This document shows, piece after piece, positions 54,507-63,648 of a stretch of DNA of 64,000 bases; position 1 is the stretch's first letter; each line of letters opens with the position of its first letter. The stretch is from Stygiolobus caldivivus (lineage in GTDB: Archaea; Thermoproteota; Thermoprotei_A; Sulfolobales; Sulfolobaceae), in contig NZ_AP024597.1 of assembly GCF_019704315.1 (NCBI RefSeq), forward strand, positions 2,640,501-2,704,500, in the 5' to 3' direction. The notes below the pieces were generated by a model. It did no database searches. It was not told the DNA's origin and saw only the letters and a program-made list of their open reading frames with translations. A program made the translations under genes and the position numbers.

Positions 54507-54873
54507 CCTCTATTATTTTCCACTCTATATTTTCTTCAAATTCTTTTCCTATTTCATAAACTATAACACTTACGTCCTCGAAAAGCTCAGGGTATATTCT
54601 GTTTACAAAAATCCTAATTTCACTGCTATTATTGTCGATTTCTATTCTCTCTACGCCTCTTATAGAAACCAACTTTTCCTGAAGTTCTTCTACAAGGGAC
54701 TTTAATTCCACGTCGTCCAGTCTAAATTCGGGTTTTTTTCTTACGAATGCAACTATCTTGTTTTTATTCTTGTCATAAGCCACTTTGATCAGGTCTTTTC
54801 CCAGTTTTTCTCTCAATTCAATAAATTTCAGGGCAACCGTATAGGTCAAGTCATTGTTTCTTAGTTCCATCAA
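54499..54873 (-). CDS. Conserved hypothetical protein downstream of Bax1
   Basis: A 124-residue alpha/beta protein: LTYTVALKFIELREKLGKDL, KIVAFVRKKPEF, LVEELQEKLVSIRGVERIEIDNN and VIVYEIGKEFEEN. No recognised family. It begins 23 bases inside the Bax1 gene and is co-transcribed with it, so a link to the XPB-Bax1 repair pair is possible. Confidence 0.6.
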   Translation of the reverse strand: MMELRNNDLTYTVALKFIELREKLGKDLIKVAYDKNKNKIVAFVRKKPEFRLDDVELKSLVEELQEKLVSIRGVERIEIDNNSSEIRIFVNRIYPELFEDVSVIVYEIGKEFEENIEWKIIEVT

Positions 54874-56305
54874 TCTGTCTGATAATTACCGCGTCGGTTA
54901 TATCTTTCCATGAAATCTTATACCCTAAATATTCCAGTACCTCTACGATATAATCTCCATATTTGGCACGTAAGGCTGACAGTTTTTGTCCGTTGAAGTC
55001 AATGTTTTTTAATTTTTCAAGAAAATCTTCCCTTATATAGTAGTTTTTCAAGAAAATATACCCTTTAAACTGTTTGAGGTTTTTCCTAATTAATTCATGA
55101 GGTATATGTAATTTTTCTGCTATCTCTTTAATGCTAATAACATCTTTTTCCTCATCAAGTGTATAGTCTACTTTCACGTTTTCTAACCTTTTTCTTTCTA
55201 TTTCTTTAAGCCATTTATATACTTTCATTACATCAACTTTCCTCTTAAATTTTATTATATTATCACCTTCATAGTCACCCAAGCTTAGTTCTTCGTTTAG
55301 GAGGATTAAAATAGGGTCTTTTACCTCCTTTAGTTTCTTTATTTTTTCTTTAATATAATCTTCTGTCCAAAACCCCACTATTTCTATATAGACCTTCAAA
55401 TCGTCTTTTTGAGCTAGAAAGTCTGGGATAAATATTTTATTTCCTACTACAAGAGGTTCTGGTTCTCTAAAGAGCTTCCAACCTGTGGACAAAGCTGAAA
55501 ATTCATAGAAAAACCTTTCTTCTACAGAACTGTCAAATAGCTTTTCGTCTTCTCTCATTTCTTTCTGTATATTATTATAGTCTTCTACTTCCAGCTTATA
55601 TACCCTTTTCCTTTTTTTACCTAGTACTAGATCTGCTTCTATCCTCCAGTGCCCTGTAGATACAATAAACGGGACTAAAACAGCGAAGTTCCTGCCGTAT
55701 TTTTCATTCATTTTTAATAATGTAGCAGGACCTATGAATTCAAGCCTTAGCGGTTTATAGGCGAAGTACATTAACCCTAACCATTTAGCCTTCCTTATTA
55801 TTTCCTTCCAGTCAGAGGAGACGGCCACTGATAGCTTGTAAGCTTTAAAGAGAAGAGTTTGCAAAAGAGATAGGTTATATGTTTTAATTAGTTGGTCTGA
55901 AGTTATGGCAGGTAATTCCACAATTTTCTTTTCATCGTCTAGGTCTGAAAACATAAATTTTATAGGGTCTATTCCGAGCTCGTTTTGTATAAGTTTGATT
56001 ATCTTATCTCTTTCATCACCTTCTAAAACCGGTCCTCTCTCGAATAATTTCTTCCTTATAATTTTGGGATCTATGGGTGAATCTCCCTCGAATTTTATGA
56101 ATCTTGTAGCTGTTTTAAACAGACCTCTTACCAGCTTATAATCATAAATTTTTTCTAAGTATTTTATCTCCTCTTTTACCTCACCTAGTGTTAAACCCGT
56201 CCTAAACATGGAAAGAATTTCATTAGCTATTTCTTGGTCCTCACAGAACAACGGAATTACCCTATTCCCTTTTAGCTTAAATCTCGCAAGAGACCAAGGT
56301 AACAC
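54851..56305 (-). CDS. Bax1-type nuclease (DUF790), XPB partner
   Basis: A 484-residue archaeal protein that binds XPB and cuts DNA near the bubble in repair. The N-terminus starts LARFKLKGNRVIPLF, then a helical region, then a nuclease-like core IFIPDFLAQKDDLKVYIEIVGFWTEDYIKEK (PD...ExxGFW variant of the restriction-endonuclease fold; the two pieces lie near 305-335). A C-terminal winged-helix-like part includes EIAEKLHIPHELIRK. It is divergent from the XPB gene with 32 bases between starts. Confidence 0.88.
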   Translation of the reverse strand: MLPWSLARFKLKGNRVIPLFCEDQEIANEILSMFRTGLTLGEVKEEIKYLEKIYDYKLVRGLFKTATRFIKFEGDSPIDPKIIRKKLFERGPVLEGDERDKIIKLIQNELGIDPIKFMFSDLDDEKKIVELPAITSDQLIKTYNLSLLQTLLFKAYKLSVAVSSDWKEIIRKAKWLGLMYFAYKPLRLEFIGPATLLKMNEKYGRNFAVLVPFIVSTGHWRIEADLVLGKKRKRVYKLEVEDYNNIQKEMREDEKLFDSSVEERFFYEFSALSTGWKLFREPEPLVVGNKIFIPDFLAQKDDLKVYIEIVGFWTEDYIKEKIKKLKEVKDPILILLNEELSLGDYEGDNIIKFKRKVDVMKVYKWLKEIERKRLENVKVDYTLDEEKDVISIKEIAEKLHIPHELIRKNLKQFKGYIFLKNYYIREDFLEKLKNIDFNGQKLSALRAKYGDYIVEVLEYLGYKISWKDITDAVIIRQIDGTKKQ

Positions 56306-56337: not shown

Positions 56338-57669
56338 TTGGTAACCCTGAGGTACTTTAAGGGATTAATCGTCTGTGACGCTTACGCTCCAAACACTAAG
56401 TGGTCTGATGAACTAAAAGCTTACATATCTTACGCCTACAAATACACTGAGATAAAAAAGTATTTTAGAGAAGAAGGAATAGACGTGACAGACGAAGTAT
56501 TTAACTCCGCTCCGCCTTTTCCTGCTATAACCGATGAAATTAAGTTAAGAGATTACCAGTTTGAAGCATTGAAAGCATGGATCTCCCACGGTAAAAGGGG
56601 GATAATAGTATTACCGACCGGTGCGGGAAAAACAGTAGTTGCCCTAAAGGCTCTAGCTTCCCTTAGAGAGTCGACACTTATAGTAGTCCCGACTATAGAT
56701 TTAATGCACCAGTGGGCTAATTCTATTAGGGAATTATTAAAGGCTGATGTAGGTGAGATAGGAGGAGGAGAAGATAAGGTCTCTGGTATCACTGTAATTA
56801 CTTACGACTCAGCCTATACTAGGGCAGAAGAACTAGGCGACAAATTCTTCTTCATTATTTTTGATGAAGTCCACCATTTGCCCTCCGAGGGGTACTCTTT
56901 GATGGCAAAAATGTATGCAGCTCCCCATAGGCTCGGTCTGACTGCTACTCCCGAGAGAGAAGACGGTAAACACGTCTTATACCCTGACCTAGTGGGACCA
57001 ATAGTCTATAGAAAAGGAGTAGAAGACTTCGCAGGGAAGTATATAGCGAGTTTTGATATTAAGAAAATATATGTTAAAATGACAGAAGAAGAGGAGATAA
57101 AATACAAGCAGCTGAGGCAAAAGCTGAGGAAATATCTTGAAAAGAAACACATTACTTTACGCAGTTTAGATGATTTCAATAAGTTAGTTAGGTTGGCTTC
57201 AAAGGACAGAGAAGCTAGAGAAGCCTTGTTAGCCTGGCATGAGTCTTTACGCATAGCAGTAAATTCTAAAGCTAAAGTTGAAAAGTTGAGGGAATTGCTG
57301 AAGGAATTTAAGGACGATAAGGTGATTATCTTTACAAGGGACACTCAATTAGCTTATGAACTTAGTAAGCTTTTTCTGATACCAGTTGTTACCTATAAGA
57401 CGAGTAAAGACGAAAGGAAAGAGATACTCCAAAAGTTCAGGAAGGGGACCTATAGAGTTATCGTAGCTTCTACAGTATTTGACGAGGGTGTTGATGTCCC
57501 TGATGCAAATGTGGGGATAGTCTTAGGGGGTTATGGTACTAAAAGGCAATATTTGCAGAGACTAGGTAGGTTATTGAGGGGTAAAGATAAGAACGCTCTC
57601 TTGATAGAAATTATAACTAAAGGTTCAGCAGACTATAGGCTCAGCAAGAGGAGGAGTTTCAGTACATAA
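56338..57669 (+). CDS. XPB-family DNA helicase (XPB2 type)
   Basis: SF2 helicase of nucleotide excision repair or transcription. An N-terminal damage-recognition-like domain (1-65) is followed by Walker A LPTGAGKTVVAL (K98), DEVH box IIFDEVHHL (176-179), the XPB-specific RED motif in TATPEREDGK (R207-D209), and helicase domain 2 with VIIFTRDTQLA, STVFDEGVDVPDA and QRLGRLLRG. TTG 56338 starts it. Pairing with Bax1 suggests the XPB-II type. Confidence 0.92.
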   Translation: MVTLRYFKGLIVCDAYAPNTKWSDELKAYISYAYKYTEIKKYFREEGIDVTDEVFNSAPPFPAITDEIKLRDYQFEALKAWISHGKRGIIVLPTGAGKTVVALKALASLRESTLIVVPTIDLMHQWANSIRELLKADVGEIGGGEDKVSGITVITYDSAYTRAEELGDKFFFIIFDEVHHLPSEGYSLMAKMYAAPHRLGLTATPEREDGKHVLYPDLVGPIVYRKGVEDFAGKYIASFDIKKIYVKMTEEEEIKYKQLRQKLRKYLEKKHITLRSLDDFNKLVRLASKDREAREALLAWHESLRIAVNSKAKVEKLRELLKEFKDDKVIIFTRDTQLAYELSKLFLIPVVTYKTSKDERKEILQKFRKGTYRVIVASTVFDEGVDVPDANVGIVLGGYGTKRQYLQRLGRLLRGKDKNALLIEIITKGSADYRLSKRRSFST

Positions 57670-57781: not shown

Positions 57782-58609
57782 ATGGATGGAATAGATAAAA
57801 AAATTATTCTTGCATTATTTAAAGATGGCAGGATATCGCAAAGGAAGATAGCTGAGGACGTGAGCCTATCAGCTACGTCTCTGAACTACAGGTTTAATAA
57901 GTTAATAGAAGACGGTATAATTAAGTCCTTTAAAGTAACTATAAACCCTAATTTCTACAATAAGTTCTATGCGTTTGTGTCCTTTAAGAACTCAAGAGAC
58001 TATATTTCACCATTTGTAAATGTTAGAGTAAGATGCTTAGAAGAACTTAACGTCTATAGGATTCAAGGGGACTCGTATAATGACCTTACGGATAAAATAG
58101 CTACCATGAGCAAAGAGCTGGGAGAACCTCAAATGACCTATATACCAGAACAAGTACCTGTTAAACCTTCCGGTGTAGATATTGAAATAGTGAAAGAGTT
58201 AATGAGGGATCCTAGAGCAGAACCCAGTGATATTGCCAAGAATATTAACATTCCCACAAAGACTATTCAGCGTAGGATAAGTGCACTTATAGGTAAGAAT
58301 ATAATAAACGTAATACCAATAGTAGACTTATCTAAAGCTGATATTGTAGTATTTGGAATATTCTCTAACCTAATATCAAAACTAGAGTTACTTGAAGGCT
58401 GCAAATTCCTTTCCTTCAAAGACGGTGATAGAGGGATTACAGTCTGTGCCGTAGAGAACATTAAGGTAGCGGATAGTTATGTTAAGAAAGTTAGAGAGAT
58501 AGATAATAGTGCGGAGATAATGATAGCGACTGAATACGACATTTATAATGACAGCGCTATGAAAGAGTTAGAAGATATAGAGAATAAAGCTATTACTTCT
58601 ATTAAGTAA
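57782..58609 (+). CDS. Lrp/AsnC-type regulator with two helix-turn-helix domains
   Basis: A 275-residue DNA-binding protein with a duplicated arrangement: HTH 1 at about 2-50 (IDKKIILALFKDGRISQRKIA and SATSLNYRFNKL), a short ligand-domain-like part, HTH 2 at about 135-180 (VDIEIVKELMRDPRAEPSDIA and PTKTIQRRISALI), then a second effector-like part. Tandem Lrp-like forms are known in Sulfolobales. It precedes the ABC operon by 94 bases on the same strand and may control it. Confidence 0.82.
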   Translation: MDGIDKKIILALFKDGRISQRKIAEDVSLSATSLNYRFNKLIEDGIIKSFKVTINPNFYNKFYAFVSFKNSRDYISPFVNVRVRCLEELNVYRIQGDSYNDLTDKIATMSKELGEPQMTYIPEQVPVKPSGVDIEIVKELMRDPRAEPSDIAKNINIPTKTIQRRISALIGKNIINVIPIVDLSKADIVVFGIFSNLISKLELLEGCKFLSFKDGDRGITVCAVENIKVADSYVKKVREIDNSAEIMIATEYDIYNDSAMKELEDIENKAITSIK

Positions 58610-58703
58610 TTATCATTCTTTTAATGTGACGATTATTACATATTTATAATTTTATTTAAAATAACCTTATAAGTAGATACTTCTCCCAACTATTCAGAAC
58701 AGG

Positions 58704-59936
58704 TTGAAGCTTAGTATATTGTTAATAGTCGTGTCCTTATTACTTCTTCTTTTAGGGATATCGCTTTCGGTATACGCTGTTCAACAAAAATTTGTCGAAC
58801 TTTACAATTTTGGTTATGGAAAATTAGCGTCTCCGCCGGAAAACTGGCAAGACTGTTATTGGGCTATATTAGTCAGGGGGTATCCTAATGCGACAATTTT
58901 CTACGACAATCATTTAATTCAACTTAATAATATATCTAATTATTCTCTCCCATCACCTGGATATTATACTTATATTATCAGCGGATATATTCAACCATAT
59001 GCGTTTCTTTCTCCATTAAGTATGTTTATGACCTTAACGGGTACCTTAATAGGGTTTAAGGGGACTACTCTTTTCTTTCAAGAGAGAATTTTAGGGGAGG
59101 ACTTAGTAAAGGGATATGCGGTAGGTGGCTCACTAAGCCGCTATGTACTAAAGCGGTTGAGCAGTGCTCTAGTATCTTTATCCATAGTGTTTATATTGAT
59201 TGTTGTTCTAGAGTATTTTCACGGTAGAAACCCTTACTTATCGCTGTTAGAATTCCTAGAATTTAATGCAGGCATTTCATCATATTTCAAAATAGATGCT
59301 ACGAGTCTGATTTTGACCTCATTGGCTTATACTGCAATGTTACTAGGTATCTCTTTCTCGCTCACCGTCTACTTAAGCGCTTTCTTGGTAATCTATGGGC
59401 TTGAAAACCCTTTAGTAAGTAAGATCATGGACAAGTGGAAATACATAGGATCAGCATTAGCTTCATGGGTGTTTGCGATGATTATTATATACGCTCTCCA
59501 TTTTTTCACCGGGCTATTACCTTATGGTACTCCTAAAGGTGAAATATTACCCTATCTGGTGATGCCCGTAATATCCTTATTTTTCCCCTTCATAGGCATT
59601 TTCGCAAATAGAATGCTTTCAACAATTCCCAAGTCGACGGCGTCTGTAAAGGGGCTTGACAAAAAAGTTATAATATATCGTCATGTACTTGGAAATGCTA
59701 CTGTAGTTATGCTTTCAACAATATCATCAGCCTTCGTGGAGATGCTCTTAGCCGAACTGTTGGTTGAAGGGATCTTTCAGTGGCCTGGTTTCGGTTTACT
59801 CCTTAAATACGCTGTATTTAATGGGGACTATAAGGTAATTGAAGGTTCTATGTTAACGTATTCCACGTTAACAGTCCTCTCTAACTTCATTACAGACGTA
59901 GTTTACGGTATTCTAGACCCTAGGGTGACGAGGTAA
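58704..59936 (+). CDS. Opp/Dpp-type ABC permease, DppB-like
   Basis: A 410-residue membrane permease. An N-terminal helix and a glycosylatable exported loop (residues about 30-105, with NAT, NIS, NYS) precede six helices. The DppB-type coupling segment survives in part: [20 protein letters not shown], and the family end [21 protein letters not shown] and [12 protein letters not shown] is well kept. TTG 58704 has a TATA-like CCTTATAAGT about 30 bases upstream. It overlaps the next permease by 1 base. Confidence 0.85.
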
Positions 59937-60703
59937 TGAGAAGGAGGTTCCTGATCGCCCTCTCTATCTTCGTTATAGTACTAGGACTCAGCTTGTTCTT
60001 TGATTTTTACACACTCCCAAAAGGTAAACCTCTACAGCCTCCATCTTATCAGTACCCTTTAGGGACTTATATAGACGGGAGTAACATGATCAACGTTAAC
60101 GCTAAGGCTATTGTTAATACCTTGTTATTTGGAGGACTTGTGGGGTTAGGAGAGGTCTTACTAGCTATCACTTACGGTAGTATAGCAGGTGCTTATGGGG
60201 GAGTAGTTAGGAGCACCATGGTCAGAGTAATAGACGCGTTAAACTCGTTACCGAGGCTCCCGTTACTGTTATCTGTTGCTCTCTTTTATGGTATCCCAAC
60301 TGGAAATTCCCTGAAGGCTAACTTTTTCCTTACAATACTGATTGTAATGCTTACTGGGTGGAATATATATGCAAGGCAAATAACAGAGATGGTCTACGCT
60401 TCGTCAATTGGTAAGTCTACAAGAAGGGTAGTAGGTAAGGTAGATCTAGGCTTAATACTCAAGAATATGAAAAGACAGGCAACAAACCTTTTAATACCTA
60501 GCTCAATTGACGGTATTTCAACTTATACCGGAATGGGAGTTATAGGTGGTGTAGGAGACCCTAATTATCCTACACTTACGACTTTGCTTAATACAGCCTC
60601 ACATTTATTGTATGACTGGTGGATGTTTTTAGTGCCCGCAGTTTTCAGAGGAATAGTGTTAGTAATACTCCTTGTCTTAGGCGACGAGGTAAGGAGGTTG
60701 TAG
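59936..60703 (+). CDS. Opp/Dpp-type ABC permease, DppC-like
   Basis: A 255-residue permease, shorter than usual DppC (about 300). N-terminal helix, then QYPLGTYIDGSNMI (the conserved HPLGTD-like block), GLVGLGEVLLAITYGSIAGAYGG, VIDALNSLPRLPLLL and GWNIYARQITEMVYASSIG. The coupling loop after this is weakly conserved and shortened. Terminal DWWMFLVPAVFRGIVLVILLVLGDEVR matches the family end. Confidence 0.82.
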   Translation: MRRRFLIALSIFVIVLGLSLFFDFYTLPKGKPLQPPSYQYPLGTYIDGSNMINVNAKAIVNTLLFGGLVGLGEVLLAITYGSIAGAYGGVVRSTMVRVIDALNSLPRLPLLLSVALFYGIPTGNSLKANFFLTILIVMLTGWNIYARQITEMVYASSIGKSTRRVVGKVDLGLILKNMKRQATNLLIPSSIDGISTYTGMGVIGGVGDPNYPTLTTLLNTASHLLYDWWMFLVPAVFRGIVLVILLVLGDEVRRL

Positions 60704-60705
60704 CG

Positions 60706-61560
60706 GTGCTTGAATACAAATGCTTAACAGTGGGTAAGAAATTGAGTTGTTTTACGGCAACAATCAGGTCTCATACGGGTATATTAGGTCAAAGAGAAAG
60801 CGGTAAGGAGGAAATCATAAAGGCGACCTTCAGGTTGATAAAAGCTGACGGTGAAGTCAAGCTAGATGGTGTAAATATTCTAGGTATGAAAGATGAAGAG
60901 TTTAGAAAAATATTATGGACTAAGATAAGCTGGGTTCCATATGACGTAATGCAACTCTTCAACCCGATCTATGATGTAGCTTCTCACTTTGTAGAGATTT
61001 TTATAAGTCACGGACTAGGTAATTCTGATTATGCGTTAGATGTCGCAAGAGAGTTTTTGAAAATTTTAGGGCTTAACCCTGAAGAGGTACTTAAGAGTTA
61101 TGTATTTCAGTTATCTCCCTTAAAGTTAAAGAAGACTGCTTTGGCTCTCGCTTTATTTACAGAACCTGAACACGTCTTGGTTGATGATATAGAGTACGGT
61201 ATAAGTGAAATAGATCAGATCCAAGTCGTGAATTCAATAATAGATGTTATGTCTACTACGTCAAGTATATTCCTTATCTCGGATAATGACCCTGCCGTTT
61301 TATCCCGCGTGGCAGATCACTTCATTGTCCTCTATAGAGGTGAGATATTAGAGGAAGGAGATAACGTCCTTGTAGACCCTCTTCACCCTTATACCATCGA
61401 TGTGCTTAGGGGGTATGTAGCCCCTGAAGGATACCTTTCAGACGGGTGTGTATACGCAAATTCTTGTTATTATTCTTCTGTAAAGTGTATGTTAAAAAAA
61501 CCAGAAATGATCAAGATAGGAAATAGGGTGGTAAAGTGCCATCTTTACCCAAATGTATAA
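60706..61560 (+). CDS. Degenerate OppD-like ABC ATPase subunit
   Basis: A 284-residue OppD homologue in which every ATPase motif is altered. Walker A is GQRESGKEE (28-36): Lys kept, Ser/Thr replaced by Glu. The Q-loop Gln is replaced (WVPYDVMQLFNP). The signature is LSPLK for LSGGQ (136-140), Walker B ends VDD for ADE (159-161), and the switch His is missing (LISDNDPA, 190-197). The C-terminal OppD extension with HPYTIDVLRG and four cysteines (C248, C254, C261, C278) is kept. GTG 60706 follows GGAGGT by about seven bases; the frame extends upstream but only into the permease. Confidence 0.8.
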   Translation: MLEYKCLTVGKKLSCFTATIRSHTGILGQRESGKEEIIKATFRLIKADGEVKLDGVNILGMKDEEFRKILWTKISWVPYDVMQLFNPIYDVASHFVEIFISHGLGNSDYALDVAREFLKILGLNPEEVLKSYVFQLSPLKLKKTALALALFTEPEHVLVDDIEYGISEIDQIQVVNSIIDVMSTTSSIFLISDNDPAVLSRVADHFIVLYRGEILEEGDNVLVDPLHPYTIDVLRGYVAPEGYLSDGCVYANSCYYSSVKCMLKKPEMIKIGNRVVKCHLYPNV

Positions 61561-62384
61561 CTTTAAGGCTAAGTTCAGTGTATGGGGACTTTGTTAAGGA
61601 CGTGAACCTAGAGGTCTCTAGAGGTGAATTTGTGCTGGTTGTTGGGGAGTGGACTAGAGGTCTTGAGGAGTTATCTAAAATGCTCACCGGAGAACTTAAG
61701 CCTAGAAAAGGTAAAATTTATCGTAATTTTGATAAGAGGGAAATAAGGCTGATTACCAGAGAAATAATAACAAGTGAACTAAGAATAAAAGATATTTTAA
61801 GACTATATGAGAAAAAATTTGGTAAAAGTGAGGGTATTTGGGTTAAATTACTATTAGGTACAAAGATCTCAGAGGATCTCAAAATTAGTGAACTTGATGA
61901 AATTAATAGGTTTAAATTGGAGCTTTTGACGATATTTTACGGCAATGTAAAACTTGTAGTAGCCGAAGATTTCCTAGGTACTATTGACACTCAGTTTAGA
62001 GAATATGCATTAAAATTACTGTTGAAAACTATTAAAATTAAATCAGCTAGTTTAATCCTTTTCAATTCTTCAATCATCCATGAGCATATCTTTAACAAAA
62101 TAGTCGTATTTTTCGGAAATGAAATAGTAGAAGAGACGTCTGAAGGCGAGTTCTATCACCCTTACTCTTTGCTTCTCCAGAACGCGAAACTCACCATAGG
62201 TAAATTTAGGGAAAAAGTAAATTTTAGTGAGATAGGCGATCCTTCACCCCATGGGTGTCCATATCACCCTTATTGTAATTTCATAAAGAAAGAGATAAAG
62301 AAGATGTGTTACACTGTGAACCCTAATTTATTCAATGTAAAAGGTAACAAAGTAAGGTGTTGGATATATGAAAATTTTAAATAA
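61536..62384 (+). CDS. Degenerate OppF-like ABC ATPase subunit
   Basis: A 282-residue OppF homologue, more decayed than its neighbour in catalysis but not in length. Walker A is GEWTRGLEE (37-45) with the essential Lys gone; no LSGGQ remains (ISELDEINRFKLELL); Walker B reads LVVAEDFLGTID; no switch His follows (LFNSSIIHEHI). The C-terminal end GCPYHPYCNF...CYTV...VRCWIY keeps the four cysteines of the OppD/F family. GTG 61536 has GGTGG four bases before it and overlaps the OppD-like gene by 25 bases. Confidence 0.78.
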   Translation: MPSLPKCITLRLSSVYGDFVKDVNLEVSRGEFVLVVGEWTRGLEELSKMLTGELKPRKGKIYRNFDKREIRLITREIITSELRIKDILRLYEKKFGKSEGIWVKLLLGTKISEDLKISELDEINRFKLELLTIFYGNVKLVVAEDFLGTIDTQFREYALKLLLKTIKIKSASLILFNSSIIHEHIFNKIVVFFGNEIVEETSEGEFYHPYSLLLQNAKLTIGKFREKVNFSEIGDPSPHGCPYHPYCNFIKKEIKKMCYTVNPNLFNVKGNKVRCWIYENFK

Positions 62385-62490: not shown

Positions 62491-63648
62491 ATGACCGAGC
62501 ATAGGACAAATTTAATATATACCGCAATATTTCTAGTTTTAATTACAGTATCTTCAAGAGCTACGAATAATATGGTGACCACTACGGTGCCACTTTTAGG
62601 GAAATACGTGTTGCATTTCTCTAACACTGTCGTAGGTCTGTTATCCACCGTTATTTTTGCCTTTACTTTCCTATCAACTTCTTATATTAACCCGTCACTG
62701 AATGCTACGACCAGAAAACGTGTGTTCATAATCTCTAATGGGTTTATAGTTTTGTCATTACTCCTCTATTATTATTCCAGCCCTATGACTGTATGGATAT
62801 TATCGGCGGTAGCTGGGCTTGCCTTCGGGCTCGTAATGCCAAACCTAATAACTGCAGCGAGTTTAGCAAACGATAAGAAATCTGCGGAAAGGCTTCTAGC
62901 ACTTTATTCTACTAGTTTAAGCCTTAGCCTTATAATAGGCCCCGCATTAGAGACCTTCCTCTTGACAAAGGTAGGATATAGGGAGATATTTCTCTGGTTT
63001 ATTCCGTTAGCCCTAATCGCATTTATCCTATCAGCTAGGCTAAAGTTTCCGGACGTAAAAAGGGAAGATAAAGGTATAGCGATACTACGAAACAAAGGTT
63101 TTATCTCATCAGTATTGTCAATAACTACCTATAATATACCGTTTGCAGCTTTCACGACGTTCTTAGCTATTTTAGCTAAAGAGAGGTTTAACATACCTGA
63201 CTTTGAGGCTTACTCTGTTTTCCTACCGTTTTTCACAATATCTTTCCTTACAAGATTGTCAATGACAATAAAGCCGTTTAGTAACCTCAAAGTACCGCTC
63301 GTAATCTCAATTGGTATTACTATCATAGGTTTATTAGGAATACTGTACGCCCCTTCCTATACTGCTTTCTTAGCAGTTATAGCACTATTAGGTATTCCTC
63401 ATGGCTCTATATTCCCTATGTCTACAATAATGATAAGTAGGGCGACAAGTATTGCTGAGAGAAATGCTGTAAATTCCTATTTCTTAGCATACAATAATAT
63501 TCTGTTCCTCGCTGTCCCTGCAATAGTAGGGTTTATATCTACCTTTATCGGGTTGACATTGACTATGACGTTACTAGTGATCCCGGTATTTATAACTGCG
63601 TTAATGTTCTTCAGTAAGTACTGGAATGATGAGATTTTAAAGGGTTAA
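62491..63648 (+). CDS. Major facilitator superfamily transporter
   Basis: A 385-residue membrane protein with about twelve hydrophobic helices. The second-third helix region has FAFTFLSTSYINPSLNATTRKRVF, a weak MFS loop motif with basic residues, and GLAFGLVMPNLITAASLAND; the second half repeats the pattern (PHGSIFPMSTIMISRATS). Substrate unknown. A TATA-like ACTTAAATTC lies about 27 bases before ATG 62491, so it is transcribed independently of the ABC operon. It meets the next gene tail to tail with a 4-base overlap. Confidence 0.82.
   Translation: MTEHRTNLIYTAIFLVLITVSSRATNNMVTTTVPLLGKYVLHFSNTVVGLLSTVIFAFTFLSTSYINPSLNATTRKRVFIISNGFIVLSLLLYYYSSPMTVWILSAVAGLAFGLVMPNLITAASLANDKKSAERLLALYSTSLSLSLIIGPALETFLLTKVGYREIFLWFIPLALIAFILSARLKFPDVKREDKGIAILRNKGFISSVLSITTYNIPFAAFTTFLAILAKERFNIPDFEAYSVFLPFFTISFLTRLSMTIKPFSNLKVPLVISIGITIIGLLGILYAPSYTAFLAVIALLGIPHGSIFPMSTIMISRATSIAERNAVNSYFLAYNNILFLAVPAIVGFISTFIGLTLTMTLLVIPVFITALMFFSKYWNDEILKG

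Follow-up and report, generated by a model that had tools for sequence, protein, structure and literature searches.

An Opp/Dpp-type gene set with disabled ATP sites in Stygiolobus caldivivus and related Sulfolobaceae: a possible conserved, ATP-independent pseudo-transporter

What becomes of an ATP-binding cassette (ABC) importer whose four subunits are preserved and whose ATP motifs are gone? The question is raised by a stretch of 64,000 nucleotides from the archaeon Stygiolobus caldivivus (contig NZ_AP024597.1, positions 2,640,501 to 2,704,500 of the forward strand; hereafter the window), in which positions 58704-62384 hold a tight Opp/Dpp-type operon with the gene order B, C, D, F. A first-pass annotation of the window, made by reading its letters, had described two permeases and two OppD/OppF-like ATPases of intact length, and all four open reading frames are confirmed:

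58704..59936, plus strand: B, an OppB/DppB-like permease of 410 amino acids with an extra N-terminal module (PF00528, BPD_transp_1, 61.7 bits)
59936..60703, plus strand: C, an OppC/DppC-like permease of 255 amino acids (Opp4C of NCBIfam, 48 bits, E 9e-13; below Pfam detection)
60706..61560, plus strand: D, an OppD/DppD-like pseudo-ATPase of 284 amino acids (Pfam ABC_tran, 25.3-25.6 bits, just over the cut-off)
61536..62384, plus strand: F, an OppF/DppF-like pseudo-ATPase of 282 amino acids (Pfam ABC_tran, 19.2 bits, under the cut-off)

The reading that we favour, with a probability of about 0.55, is that these genes encode a conserved ATP-independent pseudo-transporter, i.e., a four-subunit membrane complex of single origin that would be kept by selection in a receptor or scaffold role. 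The tight overlap first described holds for B and C (1 nucleotide) and for D and F (25 nucleotides), whereas C and D are separated by 2 nucleotides, the start of D having been moved from 60619 to the GTG at 60706 because the homologues begin there.

When a profile of the N-terminal module of B (A6) was used across 214 genomes of the order Sulfolobales, the set with four intact frames was found in 17 species, the full number of genomes examined from five genera of thermoacidophilic Sulfolobaceae (Stygiolobus, Sulfurisphaera, Sulfuracidifex, Aramenus, and Metallosphaera), and it was absent from the other 197. Whole-genome protein searches gave 16 of these genomes and the strongly diverged Metallosphaera genome G018 makes the seventeenth; a single-sequence scan of genome contigs yielded no match to the set, and an alignment-based scan yielded four loci, one of them a weak Chloroflexi match with 26% identity. 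All 68 genes in the 17 species are open, with amino-acid identity of F down to about 24%, and the four genes are contiguous, in the same order and on the same strand, in 16 of the 17. For closely related pairs, most ratios of nonsynonymous to synonymous substitution rates (dN/dS, NG86) fall at 0.04-0.18 in the four genes of the set, compared with 0.01-0.12 for canonical genes, so that the set is under clear purifying selection and evolves somewhat faster than its canonical counterparts; a single value of 0.30 for F stems from a pair with a dS of only 0.09. As judged from a tree in which the pseudo-ATPases D and F each form one side of a branch (support 98/87 and 100/98) and group by genus, the set has one origin followed by mostly vertical descent. 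Four rows are excluded from this tree, and long branches make the point of attachment among canonical D and F unsafe. In Metallosphaera genome G029, F (L074 9253-10050) is inverted relative to B-C-D yet intact, and the operon has thus been broken without loss of a gene.

The loss of the ATP motifs, which had been noted for both ATPases of the window, recurs throughout this family. It was surveyed in a joint alignment of D and F from the 17 species with canonical paralogues, in which two positions of the window serve as landmarks:

60787..60813, plus strand: Walker A of D in altered form, GQRESGKEE where the canonical motif is GxxGxGK[ST]; 16 of 17 species have Glu at the Mg-binding Ser/Thr position
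61644..61670, plus strand: remnant Walker A position of F, GEWTRGLEE, in which the Lys is gone and which differs between genera

In D of the window, Walker A reads GQRESGKE with Glu at the Mg-binding Ser/Thr, the Q-loop Gln is Tyr, LSGGQ has become LSPLK, the catalytic Glu is Asp (VDDIE), and the switch His is Asn. F has even lost the Walker Lys, as first described (GEWTRGLE); in addition, the Q-loop Gln and the switch His are absent, the signature reads LDEIN, and AEDFL stands in place of ADEPT. Across the family, the Q-loop Gln of D is replaced by Tyr, Ser, or Pro, the signature Gly-Gly is gone, the catalytic Glu is Asp, and the switch His is Asn or Ser in every species, and the Walker A change to Glu fails to appear only in G018, where the region is rebuilt. 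For F, all motifs are lost in 17/17 species, the P-loop Lys being variable or gone. The canonical paralogues encoded in the same genomes have intact motifs, and so does the control, a canonical Dpp operon of the window's genome (L078) with orthologues in 15 other genomes, all motifs kept. Motif loss repeated in 17 species is far beyond chance. An ABC ATP site is composed of the Walker motifs of one subunit and the signature of its partner, and since each site pairs the two in this manner, both composite sites are predicted to be disabled. No site with Walker A, Walker B plus catalytic Glu, signature, Q-loop, and switch His exists in D or F of any species, and the pattern of one consensus and one degenerate site is not seen either, every motif being missing from both. 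The altered motifs of D are largely common to the genera (S[GN]KE, [FP]YDP, DD[IL]E). The most diverged member, that of G018 (L076 3308-6900), has its D P-loop region rebuilt as GLLALDQIMKREL and lacks the N-terminal strands of D that bear C6 and C15, while all four frames and all eight C-terminal cysteines are kept.

These cysteines, four in D and four in F, had been singled out from the window as the conserved part of the ATPases, and they are invariant in 17/17 species for either protein:

61447..61539, plus strand: Cys4 domain of D (C248, C254, C261, C278), spaced as in E. coli DppF
62256..62360, plus strand: Cys4 domain of F (C241, C247, C258, C275), which together with HPY (208-210) holds most of the 13 invariant columns of F

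The spacing in D is identical to that of the [4Fe-4S] ligands C293/299/306/323 of DppF (PMC12136057), and in F the distance from the second Cys to the third is longer by four residues. Both proteins have the fold of a nucleotide-binding domain (NBD) with a C-terminal oligo_HPY domain and four Cys, oligo_HPY being matched at E<0.01 by 8 of 11 F and 6 of 11 D sequences. Of the 13 invariant columns of F, 10 fall within the Cys domain or from the HPY motif (HPY208) onward, and conservation is 0.41 in the C-terminal HPY/Cys region versus 0.27 elsewhere, compared with 0.62 versus 0.64 in canonical F. Conservation in canonical D and F peaks at the ATP-motif columns (0.88 and 0.98 versus 0.64 elsewhere), whereas in pseudo-D the altered motif columns are modestly above the rest (0.53 versus 0.45). 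The earlier emphasis on the cysteine regions is thus borne out for F and partly for D, although conservation is no weaker in the putative outward-facing segments of the permeases. Since Cys-to-Ser mutations in these Fe-S clusters cause E. coli DppBCDF to disassemble (PMC12136057), the cysteines may by analogy serve assembly only, without any new redox function or chemistry. Extra cysteines without counterpart in canonical NBDs also occur, C6/C15 of D in 16 of 17 species and a pair in F (aligned to residues 34 and 186) of which both members are present in 15 species and both absent in the two Stygiolobus genomes; they look like covarying pairs, possibly disulphides.

Predicted structures agree with these assignments. 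The AlphaFold model of F (predicted local distance difference test, pLDDT, 88) comprises a complete NBD and C-terminal domain, with E. coli DppF as the best match in the PDB (8z1x_D, TM-score 0.79), and that of B (pLDDT 81) is OppB/DppB-like, with E. coli OppB (8z21_A) as the best fold match; profile matches of D in the PDB are MtbOppD, MtbDppD, and EcDppD.

The two permeases are of the OppB and OppC types of type I importers, B matching Opp2B/NikB-type profiles at E 1e-25. No Pfam match was obtained for C in any of the 11 members tested, and a profile of C (A3) scores the 17 members at 343-412 bits and the next best protein anywhere in the Sulfolobaceae at 59. Two regions set the pair apart:

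58704..59123, plus strand: N-terminal module of B, a transmembrane (TM) helix, a beta-rich ectodomain of about 70 amino acids, and a second TM helix; strong scores with profile A6 only in the 17 sets
60389..60493, plus strand: degenerate EAA coupling loop region of C, identity 0.18 versus 0.51 in the rest of C

Only B keeps the EAA coupling helix, with a shortened loop (KGL..YRH.LG) whose identity among species is 0.55 versus 0.47 elsewhere; C has lost it, whereas the loop of the canonical C paralogue shows an identity of 0.69 versus 0.60 in the rest of that protein. The invariant residues of C cluster instead in PLGTY..G..M[IV]N.NA and GVGDP..PTLTT, which should face outward by homology. The module of B adds some 130 residues with the secondary structure H3-25, E29-42, E62-67, E70-74, E80-96, H100-130. 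Two weak matches to it come from genomes of the order's other families (G165, G185); they resemble unrelated TM proteins and have no ABC neighbours. Dpp permeases outside the pseudo set can carry extra ectodomains too, for a canonical DppC of the window's genome (L078 7625-9079) is 484 amino acids long, about 200 of them being an addition close to the N-terminus.

As had been stated earlier, no binding-protein gene adjoins the operon at 58704-62384, and the set has no Cluster C substrate-binding protein (SBP) of family SBP_bac_5. The window's genome encodes three SBP_bac_5 proteins (at 1.27, 1.53, and 2.31 Mb) and three canonical BCDF operons; every one of the former lies next to one of the latter, and none is spare for the pseudo set. 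The E. coli DppBCDF complex requires its SBP for the activation of ATP hydrolysis (PMC12136057), and with no spare SBP in this genome the case against a working importer is strengthened.

If these lines are put together, a Dpp/Opp-type BCDF set would have been duplicated once in the ancestor of part of the Sulfolobaceae, and the duplicate would then have been stripped of the ATP sites in both NBDs, of the coupling loop between C and F, and of any dedicated binding protein, to be retained since as a four-subunit membrane complex running without ATP. By analogy with E. coli DppBCDF, the complex would still assemble via its two C-terminal [4Fe-4S] domains and the contact between B and D, as expected from the retention of both the B-D contact loop and the Fe-S domains on which the integrity of DppBCDF depends. 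The conserved outer face of B and C and the added ectodomain of B would bind something extracellular, and the pair of pseudo-NBDs with their Fe-S domains would provide an inward-facing docking or signalling platform. The receptor or scaffold role is the weaker part of this proposal. Its more specific form, in which an outward permease/ectodomain pair and two [4Fe-4S] pseudo-NBDs would act as an ATP-independent receptor or relay reporting redox state or a ligand to the cytoplasm, is put forward tentatively; if true, this would be a class of nucleotide-independent sensor derived from ABC transporters. The suggestion of a repurposed membrane complex made by the first-pass annotation is well supported by one origin, occurrence in 17 species, purifying selection, and motif loss in all species. 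Of the sensor, channel, or scaffold that it offered as examples, repurposing as opposed to decay stands, and the three are not distinguished from one another. Several points weigh against the reading that we favour. The [4Fe-4S] type of the Cys4 domains is deduced purely from ligand spacing, and the outward placement of the C motifs follows from homology to the topology of DppC. D retains a Walker-like Lys (of doubtful alignment in G018) and a conserved altered P-loop, GxxxS[GN]KE, and may with these bind nucleotide. A binding protein outside PF00496 may also exist, and the clustering of neighbour genes gave no constant kinase, regulator, or enzyme that hints at signalling, the neighbourhoods varying by genus.

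A receptor or scaffold ranks first among the functions considered, followed by a passive conduit, a modulator of canonical Dpp, and a cryptic use of ATP. In a passive or gated conduit, a small solute or peptide would cross through a pore or facilitator made of B and C, and the pseudo-NBDs would serve only as a gate or as a base for assembly, in principle like CFTR minus its ATP gating. The strongest outward-facing conservation is found in the permease pair and not in the ATPases, downhill flux requires neither binding protein nor ATP site, and the retained coupling loop of B could be a gate; however, an open path through the membrane would be costly at an external pH of 2 and the resting pathway of type I importers is normally closed on the outside, so we hold this to be unlikely. 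More doubtful is a complex that tunes or sequesters canonical Dpp/Opp systems by binding their SBP or mixing subunits. Canonical BCDF operons and SBP_bac_5 genes do co-occur with the set in the genomes examined, and the outer loops that face the SBP in Dpp are retained, but the pseudo set is missing from other Sulfolobaceae that have larger numbers of SBPs and Dpp-like NBDs, and the coupling loop of C could not receive a canonical NBD as such loops ordinarily do.

It is highly improbable that the set is still an ATP-driven importer, in which D would use its altered P-loop (GxxxSGKE) anew or NBDs of another operon would energise B and C. Such activity could account for the altered D motifs being largely conserved between genera and for the kept coupling loop of B. 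However, the Mg ligands (Ser/Thr, Gln), the catalytic Glu, the switch His, and both signatures are gone at both composite sites, even the P-loop region of D is rebuilt in G018, and the SBP that DppBCDF needs for ATP hydrolysis (PMC12136057) has no spare counterpart here. A dying operon without function, suggested by the faster evolution of F relative to canonical F and the great divergence in G018, has a negligible probability and is rejected, given the 68 intact frames, a dN/dS far below 1, the invariant Cys and HPY, and the contiguity in 16 of 17 species. Of the marks of a pseudogene operon (stops, frameshifts, relaxed dN/dS), none was encountered. Orthologues with canonical motifs, which along with stop codons or decay here would have spoken for dying, were not found within the family of 17 species, canonical motifs occurring only in separate paralogous operons; homologous clusters instead lack the same motifs and keep the same cysteines throughout.

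By profile and fold, the closest known systems are DppBCDF and OppBCDF of E. coli (PDB 8z1v-8z1z, 8z21) and OppABCD of M. tuberculosis (8j5q-t), which share with the pseudo set two permeases, two NBDs with a C-terminal Cys4 of the [4Fe-4S] type, and the same folds. The pseudo set differs by the missing ATP motifs, EAA loop of C, and SBP and by the TM-ectodomain-TM module of B. The canonical Dpp operons of the Sulfolobaceae (e.g., L078) are paralogous BCDF sets in the same cells and have Cys4 in both NBDs as well, but possess intact Walker A/B, Q-loop, signature, and switch His, a nearby SBP, and ATP-motif conservation of 0.88-0.98. CFTR is an ABC-derived channel and SUR1/2 are ABC-derived channel regulators, all of exporter type and still ATP-binding. 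Like them, the pseudo set would reuse a transporter architecture, whereas it is an archaeal heterotetramer of importer type. In TM287/288, TmrAB, MRP1, and CFTR, one degenerate site has a structural role and one canonical ATP site is kept (PMC7756269); catalytic loss in an NBD is thus tolerated in these proteins as in the pseudo set, which in contrast has lost both sites. A literature search of incomplete coverage turned up no description of an importer in which both NBDs are degenerate.

The operon probably has its own promoter, since a TATA-like element 22-42 nucleotides before B is found in 10 of 17 species versus 2.4 expected in shuffles. The element of the window recurs in its nearest relative among the genomes examined, the Stygiolobus genome G001, and CTTTTAAG is found in Aramenus:

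58666..58673, plus strand: TATA-box-like CTTATAAG, 38 nucleotides before the start of B, a putative archaeal promoter that would give a near-leaderless transcript

Directly upstream lies a gene for an Lrp/AsnC-type regulator with two helix-turn-helix stretches (57782-58609) and downstream one for a major facilitator superfamily transporter (62491-63648), both of which are near the operon only in Stygiolobus and Sulfurisphaera. Just upstream of B, Sulfurisphaera (L063-L065) has an M32 carboxypeptidase-like gene on the same strand and Aramenus (L066, L067) a P-type ATPase gene, links that are not conserved elsewhere. Farther upstream in the window, a divergent pair (54851-56305, minus strand; 56338-57669, plus strand) places an XPB-type helicase beside a putative partner nuclease, which from its position we take to be Bax1-like, the usual archaeal partner.

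The ATP engine is what defines ABC transporters, and the known degenerate ones retain at least one working site. An importer that has been deprived of both sites, of its SBP, and of one coupling loop and is kept by selection across five genera amounts to a natural experiment, showing what the outer face of the permeases, the Fe-S domains, and the NBD fold are good for without ATP. The unsettled role of the Fe-S domains in Opp/Dpp systems becomes testable through the pseudo set, and the label “dipeptide ABC transporter” would mislead when it is applied to these genes in Metallosphaera, Sulfurisphaera, and their relatives.

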